Below the pieces are notes generated by a model. That model had not been told where the DNA came from and did no database searches. It was given only the letters and a program-made list of their open reading frames with translations. Positions 12,565-61,271 of a DNA stretch of 64,000 bases are shown here, one piece after another; positions within the stretch are counted from its first letter, which is position 1, and each line of letters starts with the position of its first letter. The translations under genes were made by a program, and so were the position numbers. The DNA comes from Leptolyngbya sp. FACHB-8 (GTDB lineage: Bacteria; Cyanobacteriota; Cyanobacteriia; Elainellales; Elainellaceae): assembly GCF_014695575.1 (NCBI RefSeq), contig NZ_JACJOO010000095.1:1-64000 (forward strand). Direction: 5' to 3'.

Positions 12565-12645
12565 TAGACATCCTGCGTGAATCGTTGCGCGGCTGCGCGG
12601 CGCAACGATTCACGCTCTCACAAATCGATTCATGCAGGAGGTCTA
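12565..12645. repeat. Family-3 TA-flanked repeat, long copy
   Basis: Inverted ends GACATCCTGCGTGAATCG and CGATTCATGCAGGAGGTC (two mismatches) are flanked by TA on both sides and enclose 77 bp. The left end runs into an internal hairpin GCGTGAATCGTTGCGC…GCGCAACGATTCACGC. A shorter relative lies at 16034-16087. Confidence 0.65.
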
Positions 12646-12706
12646 TTGAAAGAGGTTGATTTTTCGTCTTTAGAAGACTCAAAACGTCAACCTCTTTAAC
12701 TGTTTT

Positions 12707-12817
12707 TTATCGACTGCGGGTTGTAAAGATCGTTGTGAACATCATCAGAAATCCACACAGAAGGATGGCGATCGCCACTCCGCCCAGAATTAAGTTTGAG
12801 GTTTCAGTCGGTTCCAT
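12707..12817 (-). CDS. 36-residue single-span membrane protein
   Basis: The start at 12817 gives MEPTETSNLILGGVAIAILL, then CGFLMMFTTIFTTRSR. Residues 8-30 form one hydrophobic helix, with a basic tail. A longer frame extends upstream to 12913, but that part is the antisense-shifted reading of the neighbouring gene. The ATG lies 28 bases inside the end of the upstream membrane gene, which suggests translational coupling. I do not recognise it as a known photosystem, b6f or NDH small subunit. Coding status is inferred from composition and context only. Confidence 0.45.
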   Translation of the reverse strand: MEPTETSNLILGGVAIAILLCGFLMMFTTIFTTRSR

Positions 12818-13170
12818 TGGCGTACTCGGTGGGAAATAAACAGCACCAGTGAACGGAGGAAGGCTTCTAGACTCTGGGGACGGGCGATCGCCCATCCATT
12901 CACGGTGATACAAAACAGCCCTAACCCCATCAAGATGAAGGTCGGAGCCATCACTACCCCAATCACATACCAGGTCATGACATGCAGCAGCATCAAGAGG
13001 GCATAGGTGCTAGCGGCCAGAGTAATCCAATGGCGGCTGCTGGCAGGACGATGAAGCCCCGTAAAAAGGAGGGTTTGAAAAGTCGCGAGCAAATTTGCTG
13101 GCACCAGAACCGCACAGATCGCTACACAATGCTGCCGGGAAAAATCGAACAAGCTGGCAAAATCAATCAT
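12790..13170 (-). CDS. Small membrane protein, three spans
   Basis: A 126-residue protein with three hydrophobic segments: AICAVLVPANLLATFQTLLF, WITLAASTYALLMLLHVMTW with its extension, and APTFILMGLGLFCITVNGW. The C-terminus is basic. I recognise no family. Its last codons overlap the start of the 36-residue membrane protein gene, so the two are probably one unit and might form a complex. Confidence 0.6.
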   Translation of the reverse strand: MIDFASLFDFSRQHCVAICAVLVPANLLATFQTLLFTGLHRPASSRHWITLAASTYALLMLLHVMTWYVIGVVMAPTFILMGLGLFCITVNGWAIARPQSLEAFLRSLVLFISHRVRQWNRLKPQT

Positions 13171-13206
13171 GTGAAAAGGGATTTGGGAACTACGCCTTAA
13201 GGCTTA

Positions 13207-13548
13207 TCACTTCCCCCCATAATAGAATGCGATTTCTTTATCTTTGAGGGGTGCGAACCCCGCATTCTGTAACATTTGATTGAGCTCATCTTGAGCAATG
13301 TGCTTGGCCCCAATGCGGACAATGCGTGAGCGCATTGTATTGCTCACCCCGCTGCGTTGCCGTCCGGCCTCCAGACCCATAACTTTGTTATATAAGTTCA
13401 ACTTTTCGGCAGGGATGGGGGTGCCATCAAAATCGATTCCCTGGGCGATCGCTGTATCCACCGCATCCGCACCCACCAAATCATTTGCATTCGTTACATC
13501 AGACATGCCCGCGATACCAACCTGATCAATCAAAAGTACGCCCCTCAT
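13207..13548 (-). CDS. Hypothetical protein, 113 aa
   Basis: The open frame reaches 13605, but its first ATG lies inside the terminal repeat of the mobile element at 13593-13724 and cannot be ancestral. The ATG at 13548 (MRGVLLIDQVGIAGMSDVTN) is the more likely start and gives 113 residues. The protein is soluble, with a basic middle (RQRSGVSNTMRSRIVRIG) and a helical C-terminal part (IAQDELNQMLQNAGFAPL). No family was recognised. The insertion sits only 45 bases upstream, so it may have altered this gene's promoter. Confidence 0.55.
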   Translation of the reverse strand: MRGVLLIDQVGIAGMSDVTNANDLVGADAVDTAIAQGIDFDGTPIPAEKLNLYNKVMGLEAGRQRSGVSNTMRSRIVRIGAKHIAQDELNQMLQNAGFAPLKDKEIAFYYGGK

Positions 13549-13583
13549 TATATTGTGCGATCGCTCCCAACCTTCTCTCGTCG

Positions 13584-13592
13584 GGATCAAGC
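13584..13592. repeat. Target-site duplication, left (family 2 copy 1)
   Basis: GGATCAAGC occurs here and again at 13725-13733, exactly bordering the 132-bp element. The nine-base direct repeat marks insertion. Confidence 0.8.
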
Positions 13593-13724
13593 CAGCAATT
13601 CTCATTTTGAAATCAGGCCCGAAAACCGCGCGCCTTTGGCGCGCGGTTTTCGGGCATCAAAGCCAAGAGTTCACGCCCTACGGGCGTGAACTCTTGGCTT
13701 TGATGCCCATACTGAGAATTGCTG
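13593..13724. mobile_element. Family-2 132-bp two-armed element, copy 1
   Basis: The perfect 12-bp ends CAGCAATTCTCA and TGAGAATTGCTG enclose two strong hairpins. Arm one is GGCCCGAAAACCGCGCGCC…GGCGCGCGGTTTTCGGGC and arm two is CATCAAAGCCAAGAGTTCACGCC with its complement. Nine-base target duplications flank it. It has no coding capacity, so it fits a non-autonomous element moved by a transposase elsewhere in the genome. Confidence 0.85.
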
Positions 13725-14487
13725 GGATCAAGCCGAATTGAAGTGAATTGCCCTGGAAGGCAGTTTGCAAAAGGCTCTGTATGTTCTCTCAAGCAATTCA
13801 CAGTTTCTTGGGTATATAAGGGGGAGGAGGGCGATCGCCCTCCTCCCCCTTATTTGCTCCTAATACTCAGCACTATGAGCTTGCCTATGTTGAGATAGGC
13901 GTACTCGGTGATTTAACCTGCACCTCTATACCCGCTGGGGAGATTGAATTTGTGATTAAACCTTCTACCCCATAAGGCATAAATTTTTTGGTCATATTGT
14001 ATTAGTGAACTCAGCCCCCAATCAGACCAGGCAGGTTGCCATGCATCTCAAGCTGTATTTTCATTGTCTGGAGCTGTCGCTTAATTTTTCCTCTATCCAG
14101 CGTGTCCTAAGTTTCGGACCAGGAGCGCTGGAAGAATTACGGAGAGCCCTTTCGCCTCACTCTTGGCCAGAGAGAGGACGTGTATGAAGCCTCGCCTCCT
14201 TTCCTCAACGTCACTTTCACTACATAACGGTGACAATATTACGGATTGTAAAGGTGATCCCCGGAAGCTCTTGACCAAAATCGCGGTCAGGCATAAAGAA
14301 AATCTTTGGGTAGACGAGTTTATCGAGAAAAGTTGTCTACTCTGATAAAGACAACCCTGAGGATTGCAGCCGCGCCATTGGCCAGGGTTGACCTGGATAA
14401 GCAGGGATTGTTTGTCATCCTAGACAGAATGCTCTCAGCCCCGGTGTTGTTCAGAATTGCTCAGCCATAGACACACAGGCAGGTCTT
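13725..14487. other. Long spacer before gnd
   Basis: About 760 bases without a convincing gene. Short frames at 14005-14187 (plus) and 14093-14278 (minus) lack RBS and domain signal. The notable structure is the HIP1-centred palindrome at 13816-13853. The gnd promoter must lie in the last 150 bases. Confidence 0.5.
13816..13853. repeat. Perfect 38-bp palindrome centred on HIP1
   Basis: ATAAGGGGGAGGAGGGCGAT is followed directly by its exact complement, with no loop. The centre is GCGATCGC. Confidence 0.85.
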
Positions 14488-15939
14488 ATGACATACAGTT
14501 TTGGTCTGATTGGTTTGGCCGTGATGGGCGAAAACCTGGCCCTCAACATTGAACGCAATGGTTTTCCCATCGCTGTCTATAACCGGACGGCAAGTGTTAC
14601 CGAAAAGTTTGCCGCGACCCGTGCACAGGGTAAAAACGTTAAAGCCGCTTATTCCCTTGAAGAATTTGTCCAGTCGTTGGAACGTCCCCGAAAAATTCTG
14701 GTGATGGTGAAAGCGGGTGGTCCCGTTGATGCGGTGATTGACCAGCTCAAACCGATGCTGGACGAAGGTGACATGATCATCGATGGAGGCAACTCCCTCT
14801 ATACAGACACCGAACGACGAGTGCAACAGTTGGAATCCACTGGCCTGCGCTTTATGGGCATGGGGGTTAGTGGTGGTGAGACCGGTGCGTTGAATGGCCC
14901 CAGTCTGATGCCCGGTGGCACAGCTGCGGCTTATGAAGCGGTTGAACCCATTGTCACCAAGATTGCGGCCCAGGTCGACGATGGCCCTTGCGTCACCTAC
15001 ATCGGCCCTGGTGGCTCTGGTCACTACGTCAAAATGGTGCACAACGGCATTGAGTATGGCGACATGCAGTTGATTGCTGAAGCGTACGATCTGCTGAAAA
15101 ACGTCGGTGGGCTCTCAGCCGCCCAACTTCATGATGTCTTCTCCGAGTGGAACACCACCGATGAGTTGGACTCTTACCTGATTGAAATTACCGCTGATAT
15201 TTTCCGCAAGTACGATCCTCAGACTGGGGCTCCCCTGGTGGATATGATCGTAGACGCTGCCGGTCAGAAGGGTACCGGACGATGGACGGTAGAAACAGCT
15301 TTGGATTTAGGGGTTGGAATTCCTACCATCATTGCAGCGGTGAATGGCCGCATCATGTCTTCTATCAAGGAAGAGCGGGTGATGGCATCGAAGCAGCTCA
15401 CCGGGCCATCGGGCCGGTTGGACAGTGACATCCAGACCTTTGTGGACCAGGTACGGGATGCCCTCTATTGTTCGAAGATCTGCTCTTACGCCCAGGGAAT
15501 GGCGCTGCTCAGTCGGGCTTCCAAAGAGTTCAACTACAACCTCAACCTGAGCGAAATTTCTCGCATCTGGAAAGGGGGTTGTATTATCCGAGCTCGCTTC
15601 TTGAACAAGATTAAGGATGCGTTCCAGCAAGACCCGAATCTACCCAACCTGCTGCTGGCTCCCGAGTTTAAACAGACCATTCTGGATCGGCAAGGAGCAT
15701 GGCGCGAGGTTATTACCTACGCGGCCCGTTACGGTATCCCCGTTCCCGCCTTTAGTGCGTCATTGGATTACTTCGACAGCTACCGTCGTGCAGTTCTACC
15801 GCAAAACCTGACCCAGGCGCAGCGCGATTACTTCGGGGCTCACACCTATGAGCGTGTGGATCAGCCTCGAGGCCAGTTCTTCCACACGGATTGGGATGCC
15901 CCTGAGGTGCCCACTCCTCCCGAGCCCTCCAGAGTTTAG
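14488..15939 (+). CDS. gnd: 6-phosphogluconate dehydrogenase (decarboxylating)
   Basis: A 483-residue enzyme of the oxidative pentose phosphate pathway; it oxidises 6-phosphogluconate to ribulose 5-phosphate, making NADPH. The Rossmann motif is GLAVMGENLALNIERNGF at the N-terminus, followed by YNRT. The substrate loop is IIDGGNSLY, MGVSGGETGALNGPSLMPGG comes next, and the catalytic lysine and asparagine are in HYVKMVHNGIEYGDMQ. The C-terminal helical domain includes GTGRWTVETALDLGVGIPTI. Length and motifs are normal. In cyanobacteria this path dominates sugar breakdown in the dark. Confidence 0.97.
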   Translation: MTYSFGLIGLAVMGENLALNIERNGFPIAVYNRTASVTEKFAATRAQGKNVKAAYSLEEFVQSLERPRKILVMVKAGGPVDAVIDQLKPMLDEGDMIIDGGNSLYTDTERRVQQLESTGLRFMGMGVSGGETGALNGPSLMPGGTAAAYEAVEPIVTKIAAQVDDGPCVTYIGPGGSGHYVKMVHNGIEYGDMQLIAEAYDLLKNVGGLSAAQLHDVFSEWNTTDELDSYLIEITADIFRKYDPQTGAPLVDMIVDAAGQKGTGRWTVETALDLGVGIPTIIAAVNGRIMSSIKEERVMASKQLTGPSGRLDSDIQTFVDQVRDALYCSKICSYAQGMALLSRASKEFNYNLNLSEISRIWKGGCIIRARFLNKIKDAFQQDPNLPNLLLAPEFKQTILDRQGAWREVITYAARYGIPVPAFSASLDYFDSYRRAVLPQNLTQAQRDYFGAHTYERVDQPRGQFFHTDWDAPEVPTPPEPSRV

Positions 15940-23269: not shown

Positions 23270-23355
23270 CTTTGCAGGACATATGCATTTTTGTTGGATG
23301 TAGTGTGTTTGACCCATCACACCAATCAAAATCACCTGATATGGCAGACTTACGT

Positions 23356-23479
23356 AACCTGAGTTCGGGTTAAGGGCGTTTTCGAGTGCCGCGCGACGCA
23401 CGGCACTCGAAAACGCTCATTTTGGCGTGCGCTTTGCGCACGCCAAAATAAGCACTTCAGCTTATCCCGAACCGAGGTT
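23356..23479. repeat. Family-1 two-armed repeat, copy C
   Basis: The ends AACCTGAGTTCGGGTTAAG and CTTATCCCGAACCGAGGTT are inverted repeats. TA borders both sides (23355-23356 and 23479-23480) around 122 bp. Two arms lie inside: GCGTTTTCGAGTGCCGCGCG with its partner, and TTTTGGCGTGCGC with GCGCACGCCAAAA. It is the first of two direct tandem copies between pstS and the RDD gene. Confidence 0.85.
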
Positions 23480-23510
23480 ATTCAGGGCGGATTCATATAA
23501 AAACGGTATT

Positions 23511-23635
23511 AACCTGAGTTCGGGTTAAGGGTGTTTTCGAGTGCCGCGCGTTGCGCGGCACTCGAAAACGCTCATTTTGGCGTGCGCTTTGCGCACGCCA
23601 AAATGAGCACTTCAGCTTATCCCGAACTGAAGTGT
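23511..23635. repeat. Family-1 two-armed repeat, copy D
   Basis: It has the same order and orientation as the copy 32 bases upstream, with TA at 23510-23511 and 23635-23636 around 123 bp. It stops one or two bases before the stop codon of the RDD gene, so it lies at that gene's 3' end. Confidence 0.85.
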
Positions 23636-30545: not shown

Positions 30546-30997
30546 TGGGAAACGAGATTGGCTAACCGGCTACCACAATTACCTACTCAGGATAAATCAA
30601 TCTAGCGCACCCGATCATCTGTTCTAGATAATTCCAGCAATTCTCAGTATGGGCCTCAAAGCCAAGAGTTCACGCCCTACGGGCGTGAACTCTTGGCTTT
30701 GAGGCCCGAAAACCGCGCGCCGAAGGCGCGCGGTTTTCGGGCCTGATTTCAAAATGAGAATTGCTGAGATAATTCTGATATAGCCATTGCAATCCACTTG
30801 GAACAGTATATTTTTGAAAAGCCGCGCGGTGTGGGCTTTCCAAAAATACACTGTCTGGTTAAACGCGTAGCGTTATAGAACAGGCCCTGTCAACATTGCT
30901 GCGGTGAAACCTCAGTCGGTTGATGCGATTTCAGGCGAGGAACGGGTGGACTTAGCCCGCGCATTCCTTGCCTGAAATCCTACGAGTTGACTAAGGG
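30546..30997. other. Spacer with a mobile element and hairpins
   Basis: About 450 bases without a supported gene. It contains the second family-2 element (30635-30766). The rest shows a loose hairpin around TATTTTTGAAAAGCC…GGGCTTTCCAAAAATA (about 30809-30849). Confidence 0.6.
30635..30766. mobile_element. Family-2 132-bp two-armed element, copy 2
   Basis: It has the same 12-bp ends as the copy at 13593-13724 but lies in the opposite orientation. The nine-base target duplication AGATAATTC occurs at 30626-30634 and 30767-30775. The CATC/GATG pair of copy 1 reads CCTC/GAGG here, a compensating change that keeps the stem. Loop bases also differ (CTTTGG versus CGAAGG). Confidence 0.85.
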
Positions 30998-31237: not shown

Positions 31238-31669
31238 AGAACTAGCCTTCTTTCGAAGATTTGTGTGAGATGGAGTTAGAAATACAACCCAGGGGCTAAT
31301 GCCAATAGCTCGACTTTGTTGTAAAGAATATCTTCCCTAATTTGACTCTAACTCTCAATCCCCTGATTGAACGATTTTAGTAACAGGAAAGTTATGTTTC
31401 AGATCAATAAATAACTAAGTAACCTCAGTTCGGGATAAGCTGAAGTGCTCATTTTGGCATGCGCAAAGCGCACGCCAAAATGAGCGTTTTCGAGTGCCGC
31501 GCAACGCGCGGCACTCGAAAACGCCCTTAACCCGAACTCAGGTTAACTACACAATCCTAAGGCACTTATACCTTATGCCAATTAACCCCCTTTGTAGTCG
31601 CTGTAAAGCGACTACAAAGGGGGAGCTTTAGTTCTCAATGGCTTGATGTGGCTGTGCTAACACTGCACA
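31238..31669. other. Spacer before malQ end
   Basis: It has no gene. It holds the family-1 copy at 31421-31544 and a hairpin CCCCCTTTGTAGTCGCT…AGCGACTACAAAGGGGG (about 31588-31622) that probably terminates the minus-strand malQ transcript. Confidence 0.6.
31421..31544. repeat. Family-1 two-armed repeat, copy E (reversed)
   Basis: It begins AACCTCAGTTCGGGATAAG and ends CTTAACCCGAACTCAGGTT. TA flanks both sides around 122 bp, in the opposite orientation to the copies near 23.4 kb. Both arms are intact. Confidence 0.85.
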
Positions 31670-59357: not shown

Positions 59358-59374
59358 TTTCACCCACCTACTTT

Positions 59375-59498
59375 AACCTCAGTTCGGGTTAAGGGCTTTT
59401 TCGAGTGCCGCGCTTCGCGCGGCACTCGAAAAAGCCCATTATTGCGTGCGCGTCGCGCACGCAATAATGGGCGGTTCGGCTTATCCCGAACTGACGTT
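59375..59498. repeat. Family-1 two-armed repeat, copy F
   Basis: The ends AACCTCAGTTCGGGTTAAG and CTTATCCCGAACTGACGTT lie within TA flanks (59374-59375, 59498-59499) around 122 bp. The second arm reads CATTATTGCGTGCGC/GCGCACGCAATAATG rather than CATTTTGGCGTGCGC, so both stem strands have changed together. It ends three bases from the ABC gene stop. Confidence 0.85.
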
Positions 59499-59501
59499 AC
59501 T

Positions 59502-61271
59502 TTAGCCACGCATGCCCATCTGGACACGCCAGAGAGATGCGTAGAGACCATCTCGTTCGAGCAGTTCCTCGTGAGTGCCCCGTTCTACCAGTTGGCCTTG
59601 CTCCATGACATAAATGCAGTGGGCATTACGAATGGTAGAGAGGCGGTGGGCGATCGCCACTGTCGTTCGGTTCTGCGTAATGCGCTCCAGGGAATGCTGA
59701 ATGGCTGCTTCCGTTTCGTTATCAACCGCTGAGGTCGCCTCATCGAGAATCAGAATGGGAGGATTCTTGAGAACGGCGCGGGCGATCGCAATCCGCTGTC
59801 GTTGCCCACCTGAGAGCTTCTGACCGCGCTCCCCCACAATAGTGTCGTAGCCCTGGGGCAACTGCTCAATAAAATCGTGGGCTTCGGCAATCTTGGCAGC
59901 TTCCACCACTTCACGGAATGTTGCGTCAGGGGTGCCGTAGGTGATGTTTTCCCAAACAGTACCGTGGAACAGGAACACATCCTGACTCACCAACCCCATT
60001 GCCTTTCGCAAATCTCGTTGCTGCAAATCGCGGATGTCATGACCATCGAGGGTAATCTCGCCCGACTCAATTTCATAGAGCCGCAGCAGCAACTTCACCA
60101 AAGTGCTCTTACCCGAACCCGTGGAACCAACGATCGCTGTCGTTTTCCCAGCAGGCATATGCAGAGTCAGGTTTTCAATGATAGGAGTGCGATCGCGATA
60201 CGCAAACGTCACATCCTTCAACCAGATATCACCTTGAACACGATTGGTAGGTAGTGGTGTACGACCAGAGTGAATGGCAAGAGGCGTATCTAACAAATCC
60301 AATACCCGATTTGTAGACGCCATTGCCCGTTGATATTGATCCAAAGTTTCACCCAGACGCGTTAACGGCCAAAGTAATCGCTGAATCAGGTAAACCATGA
60401 CGCTGTAGTTACCAACGGAAAGATTGCCGTTAACAACCGCTAATCCACCAAAGAACAACGTTGCTGTGAAACCTAACAGAATGAGAATGCGAATCAGCGG
60501 AACAAAGGCAGAACTCAGAGCGATCGCATGCTGGTTACTCTTGCTATACCCATCACTTTCCCGGCGAATGCGTTCAATTTCATAGGCTTCAGTGGTGAAG
60601 CTTTTGATGGTCATAATGCCGCCCAGGTTGTTAGACAGGCGGCTATTGAGCAAGCTAGCTTTCTCTCGCACGTCAGCATAGCGGGGAGCCAGGAGTTTTT
60701 GAAAGGCGATCGCTCCCCACAAAATAAAGGGCATGGGCAACATCGCCAATCCTGCCACGCCCGGAGCCAGGTAAAAGAAGATGCCACCAATGATCACCAC
60801 GGTGGCGCTCACCTGCAAAACCTCATTCGCCCCATAATCCAAAAACCGCTCCAACTGATTAATGTCATCGTTGAGAATCGACATTAACCGCCCTGTGCTG
60901 CGGCTCTCAAAGTATTCCAACTCCAACTCTTGGATGTGAGCGTAAGCATCCAACCGCAAGTCGTGCTGAATATGCTGGGCCAGATTACGCCACAATCGCG
61001 CATAGGCATACTCAAACAGCGACTCTAAACTCCAGATGACAAAGCTGACGAGGACGATCGCCACCAACTGGCTCCGTACGCTCTCCAACCCAAACTGCGT
61101 CAACCAGGAATCTTGCTGCTGTACCACCACATCCACAGCCATACCAATCAATAGCGGTGGAGCCAAATCAAAAATCTTGTTCAAAATAGAACAGACGGTG
61201 GCTTGCCAGAAGCGACGACGATAAGCCTGGGCGTAGCCAAAGAGGCGACGGAGTGGGTGCGGACGATGCAC
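59502..61271 (-). CDS. ABC exporter, fused permease and ATPase
   Basis: A 589-residue type I exporter half-transporter. Six spans occupy residues 15-310, including [20 protein letters not shown] and [18 protein letters not shown]. The ATPase domain has Walker [19 protein letters not shown], signature [16 protein letters not shown], Walker [17 protein letters not shown] and switch His [11 protein letters not shown]. It works as a homodimer, probably moving a lipid or hydrophobic compound. No accessory gene is linked. The substrate is undetermined. Confidence 0.93.

Follow-up and report, generated by a model that had tools for sequence, protein, structure and literature searches.

A 132-bp hairpin-bearing MITE family in Leptolyngbya sp. 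FACHB-8 and its probable ISNCY-annotated partner transposase

Results

Two copies in the window

Analysis of a 64,000-nucleotide stretch of Leptolyngbya sp. FACHB-8 (contig NZ_JACJOO010000095.1, positions 1 to 64,000; the window) revealed two copies of a 132-bp element, referred to below as the MITE. Copy 1 (13593..13724, plus strand) is bounded by CAGCAATTCTCA...TGAGAATTGCTG and has perfect 12-bp ends. Its left terminal inverted repeat, CAGCAATTCTCA (13593..13604, plus strand), is followed by TTTTG, and the right one (13713..13724), which reads CAGCAATTCTCA on the minus strand, is followed by GTATGG. Two hairpins are positioned between these ends on the plus strand, namely, hairpin A (13621..13651; 14 pairs, 3-nt loop TTT at 13635-13637) and hairpin B (13653..13707; 26 pairs, 3-nt loop TAC at 13679-13681). 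The target duplication GGATCAAGC is located on the left (13584..13592) and on the right (13725..13733) of the element. Copy 2 occupies 30635..30766 on the minus strand, with hairpin B at 30652..30706 and hairpin A at 30708..30738, and is flanked by AGATAATTC at 30626..30634 and 30767..30775. The two copies, on opposite strands, are 95% identical across the full 132 bases. Rereading of the coordinates confirmed the original prediction of a 132-bp unit with perfect 12-bp ends and a 9-bp target duplication, as well as of a second, inverted copy of equal length with a private duplication. Exact 12-mer ends were found at only four places in the window, all of them ends of copies 1 and 2; with up to two mismatches allowed, 14 matches were obtained versus 6.85 expected.

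Hairpin A resembles a terminator by eye. A terminator scan of positions 12600-14700, which covered copy 1 only, predicted no site inside this copy.

Another interspersed structured repeat family (AACCTCAGTTCGGGATAAGC...) is present in the window at 23355-23479, 23506-23633, 31421-31546, and 59372-59504. This family is invaded by the MITE, and in a 260-bp MITE copy (L146, 1501-1760) it is itself inserted into the MITE. The octamer GCGATCGC, which is linked to cyanobacteria, occurs 86 times in the window versus 1.05 expected, a frequency that points to a cyanobacterial host.

Family size and forms

Across all 95 contigs of the assembly (6,925,831 bases), counts of the exact end 12-mer were 134 + 129, and a reversed control motif gave no occurrence in the same sequence. 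Loose matching of the ends over spans of 60-260 bp gave 417 pairs in the fetched stretches of this genome, and 124 of these, all distinct, are flanked by a target duplication. The duplication is 9 bp long in 122 of the 124 cases, of which 94 are perfect and 28 contain a single mismatch; of the two others, one has 10 bp and the other 8 bp. No duplication was detected at the other 293 pairs; 19 of 130-133 bp and 54 of 80-90 bp were inspected, and the latter were mostly sub-pairs within longer elements.

Exactly 132 bp was measured for 108 copies, which are split 55 to 53 between the two orientations and represent 103 distinct sequences. The duplication was present in 95 of them and absent from 13. 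Nine have an identical partner, and the nearest partner of 66 more is one to four bases away. The other duplicated forms comprise seven elements of 82-83 bp with a single hairpin each, one of 89 bp whose only hairpin, B, is a near-perfect palindrome, as well as a 260-bp element that contains another repeat. When longer versions of the end pattern were used, one tolerating up to two and the other up to three mismatches, 143 and 147 places matched, which indicates a family of approximately 150 copies; for sequence outside the fetched stretches, the numbers come from pattern counts. The genome-wide search for further copies therefore placed both window copies in a large MITE family, with duplications at 124 members.

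Contigs C14, C32, C48, and C51 (L039, L040, L041, and L042) start inside an element, approximately 112 bases from its end, and thus the MITE family breaks the assembly. On contig C65 (L188, 9214-9504), two elements of different subfamilies adjoin, and the same 9-bp sequence (ACACTACAA) is present on both outer sides as well as between them; in the second element, the hairpin B arms are of two subfamilies. Adjoining copies were likewise observed on C74 and C90.

Evidence for transposition

A clean empty site was identified for the copy at C95:146987 (L014), which is sited in another interspersed repeat. When the flanks of this copy were joined minus one duplication, they were identical to an uninterrupted copy of the host repeat at 81 of 91 positions, without a gap. 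Two further candidate empty sites gave alignments that were gapped across the junction. A search for the end motif (CAGCAATTCTCANNNTG) in the one congeneric genome examined (G035) gave no match. The surroundings of window copy 1 are syntenic in that genome at 67-77% identity, with approximately 460 bp near copy 1 versus approximately 1000 bp in the window, a difference that is not base-resolved. Of the 122 elements, 108 have a 1-kb flank on each side, and an open reading frame of at least 150 amino acids crosses the restored site in 4 of these 108, versus 269 of 500 random points.

With 12-bp terminal inverted repeats on a 132-bp unit, a target duplication of uniform length (9 bp at 122 of the 124 duplicated copies), and a sequence too short to encode a transposase, the element has the features of a MITE. 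Autonomous elements with the same ends were found in other genomes, and MITE and insertion sequence co-occur in Pseudanabaena. The proposal that a noncoding structured unit has transposed is thus supported by the 124 copies with duplications, the empty site, the absence of the end motif from the congeneric genome, and the complete insertion sequences of other genomes, which share the ends and have 9-bp duplications. Both window copies are members of this MITE family.

No match to the 132-bp element was found in plasmid records, and the end pattern was not found in viral contigs. A full-text literature search for the 12-mer ends returned three papers, none of them apparently on this element.

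The copy in L014 (1501-1632) interrupts an additional palindromic repeat (ACAGGACTTACGCAAG...CGTAAGTCCT), and a number of MITE copies sit in other hairpin repeats, perhaps reflecting a target preference.

Insertion sequences with the same ends

The end pattern with its inner bases was detected in at least 28 stretches of many bacteria, some of them perhaps by chance. In Methylobacter, a truncated element with these ends carries part of a transposase. Family scans assigned this fragment to no family. Relatives were found in ten plasmid records, one of them annotated as "ISNCY family transposase." Analysis of six plasmid loci revealed both ends and exact 9-bp duplications in three, corresponding to insertion sequences of 1865 bp in Calothrix, 1876 bp in Anabaena cylindrica, and 1890 bp in Nostoc edaphicum. 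The Gloeothece locus has both ends and no matching duplication, and the remaining two loci have one recognizable end each.

A family relative (G026) revealed nine transposase matches. Four of the five loci examined have both ends, a length of 1420 bp, and exact 9-bp duplications, and one lacks a matching duplication. The ends of this insertion sequence, CAGCAATTCTCATTTTGG and CAGCAATTCTCAGTATGG, continue into the same unlike pair as the MITE ends, TTTTG at one and GTATGG at the other. An insertion sequence of 1418 bp with the exact duplication GAGATTTAT was found in Pseudanabaena. Elements with intact ends and no matching duplication were found in three further genomes (G016, G017, and G018).

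Seven aligned transposases (an alignment without the G029 protein) share the blocks ALDGTEY, LGDDLY (GDDLY), and WK.ENE (ENE), which are consistent with a DDE enzyme. The Pfam DDE_Tnp_1 score is near the cutoff, above it in one protein and below it in the other. Judged by the insertion sequences with these ends, the mobilizing enzyme is probably an ISNCY-annotated DDE transposase.

Among the 36 genomes of the order set, the transposase was detected in 15 and the end motif in 23. Ends without a transposase match occur in FACHB-8, G004, G007, Phormidium tenue, and several others. Insertion sequences of the kind that the original prediction proposed to search for were found in other genomes; in FACHB-8 itself, none with these ends was present in the 1,563,719 bases scanned (overlaps included; part of the genome), and no transposase match was obtained. 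This absence is not proof, because two short contigs were not covered and repeats collapse in such assemblies.

The seven DDE_Tnp_1 matches of FACHB-8 were checked as possible partners, and none has these ends in the fetched flanks at up to one mismatch. The MITE does not appear to be a simple deletion derivative of the insertion sequence, since a long hairpin near position 44 was absent from the ends of the seven insertion sequences examined, where the best stems are short (9 pairs, in Gloeothece).

In the uncultured proteobacterium bin-05821, the end and inner sequence lie close to contig ends on several contigs (L227, L230, L235, L236, and L244), as would be expected had the assembly been broken by an insertion sequence that carries these ends.

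Matched arm changes and loop flips

Comparison of the 103 distinct 132-bp copies over 40 pairs revealed 96.5% Watson-Crick cells, versus 16-35% in a control in which the partner was slid by one to three columns. Two or more pair types were observed at 20 of the 40 pairs, versus 1-4 in the slid control. Between nearest neighbors, 47 double changes led from one Watson-Crick pair to another, and 122 changes were one-sided. The broken pairs in this comparison (46 G-T and 58 A-C) revealed no strand bias.

The loops occur in both orientations at close to even frequency. In hairpin A, CCTTTGG was counted 20 times and CCAAAGG 18 times, and CCTTCGG 24 times and CCGAAGG 18 times; the corresponding numbers in hairpin B were 31 for CCGTAGG and 23 for CCTACGG and 13 for CCGTCGG and 6 for CCGACGG. 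Seven clusters (21 copies) are identical across all 126 bases outside the loops. Loop A was found in both orientations in four of these clusters, and three of the four also have both orientations of loop B. Loop flipping therefore appears to be faster than point mutation of the rest of the element. The orientations of loops A and B are independent (28, 24, 21, and 18 among the 91 of 108 copies with classifiable loops; Fisher P = 1.0).

These counts are to be read with the caution that the FACHB-8 genome is a fragmented assembly in which some contigs start inside a MITE copy; the copies on a 3.97-Mb Pseudanabaena scaffold behave alike. There, 25 copies of 131 bp were 96.2% paired, versus 28-50% when slid by one or two columns, with two or more pair types at 12 of 38 pairs and loops of TAA (12) or TTA (8) and of GTA (11) or TAC (6). 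Matched changes, loop flips, and the lack of strand bias together point to template switching during DNA replication.

A shared geometry in other cyanobacteria

Elements that share the MITE ends, measure 131-133 bp, and carry two hairpins were found in Pseudanabaena biceps, Phormidium tenue, and the genomes G004 (where hairpin A has a long loop), G005, and G007. Elements in other genomes were picked for both ends lying close together. In seven reference sequences, two of which represent subfamilies of FACHB-8, the hairpin centers are located at 44-45 and 87-88; these sequences had been preselected as two-hairpin elements of 131-133 bp. Interior similarity was expressed as z values against shuffles that preserve base composition only. 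The two FACHB-8 subfamilies were at chance level versus Phormidium (z, 0.5-0.6), near chance versus Pseudanabaena (0.9-2.2) and G004 (1.1-1.8), and weakly similar to G007 (3.5-3.8) and G005 (5.3-6.7). Pseudanabaena and Phormidium are related to each other (z, 13.9), as are G007 and G005 (z, 13.9). The former pair is weakly linked to G004 (3.0-3.2) and not linked to the latter pair (-1.7 to -0.1). These values indicate at least two groups of the same geometry without detectable relation.

Of the 35 Pseudanabaena end pairs of 110-145 bp, 25 are 131 bp long, and a duplication (up to one mismatch) flanks 18. The same ends also delimit elements of 89, 96, 109, 111, 141, 143, 147, 165, 194, 200 bp, and more among those listed, and the G026 and G011 elements of 131-133 bp are without the two hairpins.

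Discussion

We estimate a probability of roughly 0.8 that the element is a non-autonomous DNA transposon (MITE) that is moved by an ISNCY-annotated DDE transposase and whose hairpins are kept mainly by template switching. The transposase, whose genes lie elsewhere in insertion sequences that measure 1.42-1.89 kb and have CAGCAATTCTCA ends, would bind the MITE ends in trans, move the element, and make the 9-bp target duplication; its action on the MITE, in this lineage as in general, is deduced from sequence. Template switching between the palindrome arms during replication would transfer a change in either arm to its partner and turn the 3-nt loop round. The ends would be held by the transposase while the arm sequence drifts in pairs. 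Related elements retain length and hairpin position and lose hairpin sequence; their common descent is presumed.

The 131-133-bp length and the hairpin positions might instead have arisen independently in several genera as a requirement of the transposase, which we regard as doubtful. The coincidence of centers in all seven reference sequences, when the FACHB-8 family has no detectable similarity to those of Phormidium or Pseudanabaena, speaks for such an origin, as does the existence of 131-133-bp elements without these hairpins. However, same-ended elements have many other lengths, the seven sequences were chosen for the very features compared, and the weak similarity to G005 and G007 (z, 3.5-6.7) favors common descent for part of them.

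We tentatively add a bolder possibility, namely, that the geometry itself is selected by transposition and that palindromes at about one-third and two-thirds of a 131-133-bp element form a device. Cruciforms or a folded single strand, for example, might join the ends, the sequence being free and rewritten and flipped by template switching. Architecture rather than sequence might then specify the element across genera without detectable hairpin similarity. If the fixed geometry is indeed selected, the hairpins would be a working part of transposition and not ballast.

Hairpins could also be turned and repaired not at replication but in the act of transposition or by enzymes that cut cruciforms. 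The differing loop orientations of copies that are identical elsewhere look as if moves could turn hairpins, and loops A and B turn independently; yet the data fit flips before or after insertion equally, and we consider this origin unlikely. Selection on a transcript (small RNA, mRNA stabilizer, or terminator), with mutations compensated singly, seems improbable. It would account for the high pairing and the compensatory changes, and the count over all cells on the strand of the element shows more G-T than A-C (92 versus 56), although this count includes shared ancestry repeatedly and one stray helix A pair. Against it, broken pairs between nearest neighbors are unbiased, free turning of the loops is not predicted, and copy 1 contains no terminator-like site. 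An assembly artifact or plain duplication of a genomic segment, to which the contigs starting inside an element (C14, C32, C48, and C51) and the adjoining copies on C65, C74, and C90 might point, can be dismissed in view of site-specific 9-bp duplications at more than 120 places, the empty site, and the same kind of element on the 3.97-Mb Pseudanabaena scaffold.

Template switching as the main keeper of the hairpins has described counterparts. In the parts of two reports available to us (PMC8794818; PMC8604942), its footprints comprise arm repair, compensatory changes, and loop inversion, as in the MITE; those systems are RNA genes and yeast coding sequence, whereas the MITE is mobile and present in many near-identical copies. 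Such copies offer a natural experiment on the evolution of perfect palindromes, in which each copy can be scored for its matched arm changes and loop flips.

The MITE is an ordinary kind of element, and its partner is of a probable known type; new are its hairpins, which evolve in matched pairs and flip their loops while the geometry stays fixed. ISNCY-annotated insertion sequences (e.g., that of WP_013335080.1 from Gloeothece verrucosa PCC 7822) have the same CAGCAATTCTCA ends and, wherever both ends and a duplication were found, a 9-bp duplication like that of the MITE. They differ in their length of 1.42-1.89 kb, their transposase gene, and the lack of a long hairpin near position 44. The ISMae2 subgroup of ISNCY in ISfinder is marked by its ends and a 9-bp duplication. 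With both of its unlike ends matched and the same exact duplication length, a large bacterial MITE family is hereby tied to one particular type of transposase.

Abundant intergenic hairpins are also typical of REP/REPIN-type palindromes. The MITE differs from these in having 12-bp ends, duplications of 9 bp, and a probable DDE-type partner, whereas the enzymes that act with REP sequences belong to the HUH class. REP/REPIN elements are not known to have a target duplication, and the 9-bp duplications place the MITE outside that group. According to the accessible part of PMC11448079, which also names ISMae2, a 187-bp Microcystis MITE is likewise short, noncoding, and mostly intergenic, with inverted repeats, a target duplication, and a stem-loop, but its ends are 9 nt long and imperfect, its duplications measure 8 nt, and its partner is of the ISL3 type. 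Nezha (Zhou et al. 2008), as cited in the passages seen of PMC3733652 and PMC10969869, is a further MITE described from cyanobacteria.

A second MITE type of 131-143 bp with the same ends was observed in G026 (L320, L321, and L322), G011 (L297), and G012 (L324). It is without the two long hairpins and has a short palindrome resembling the terminal inverted repeat near one end.
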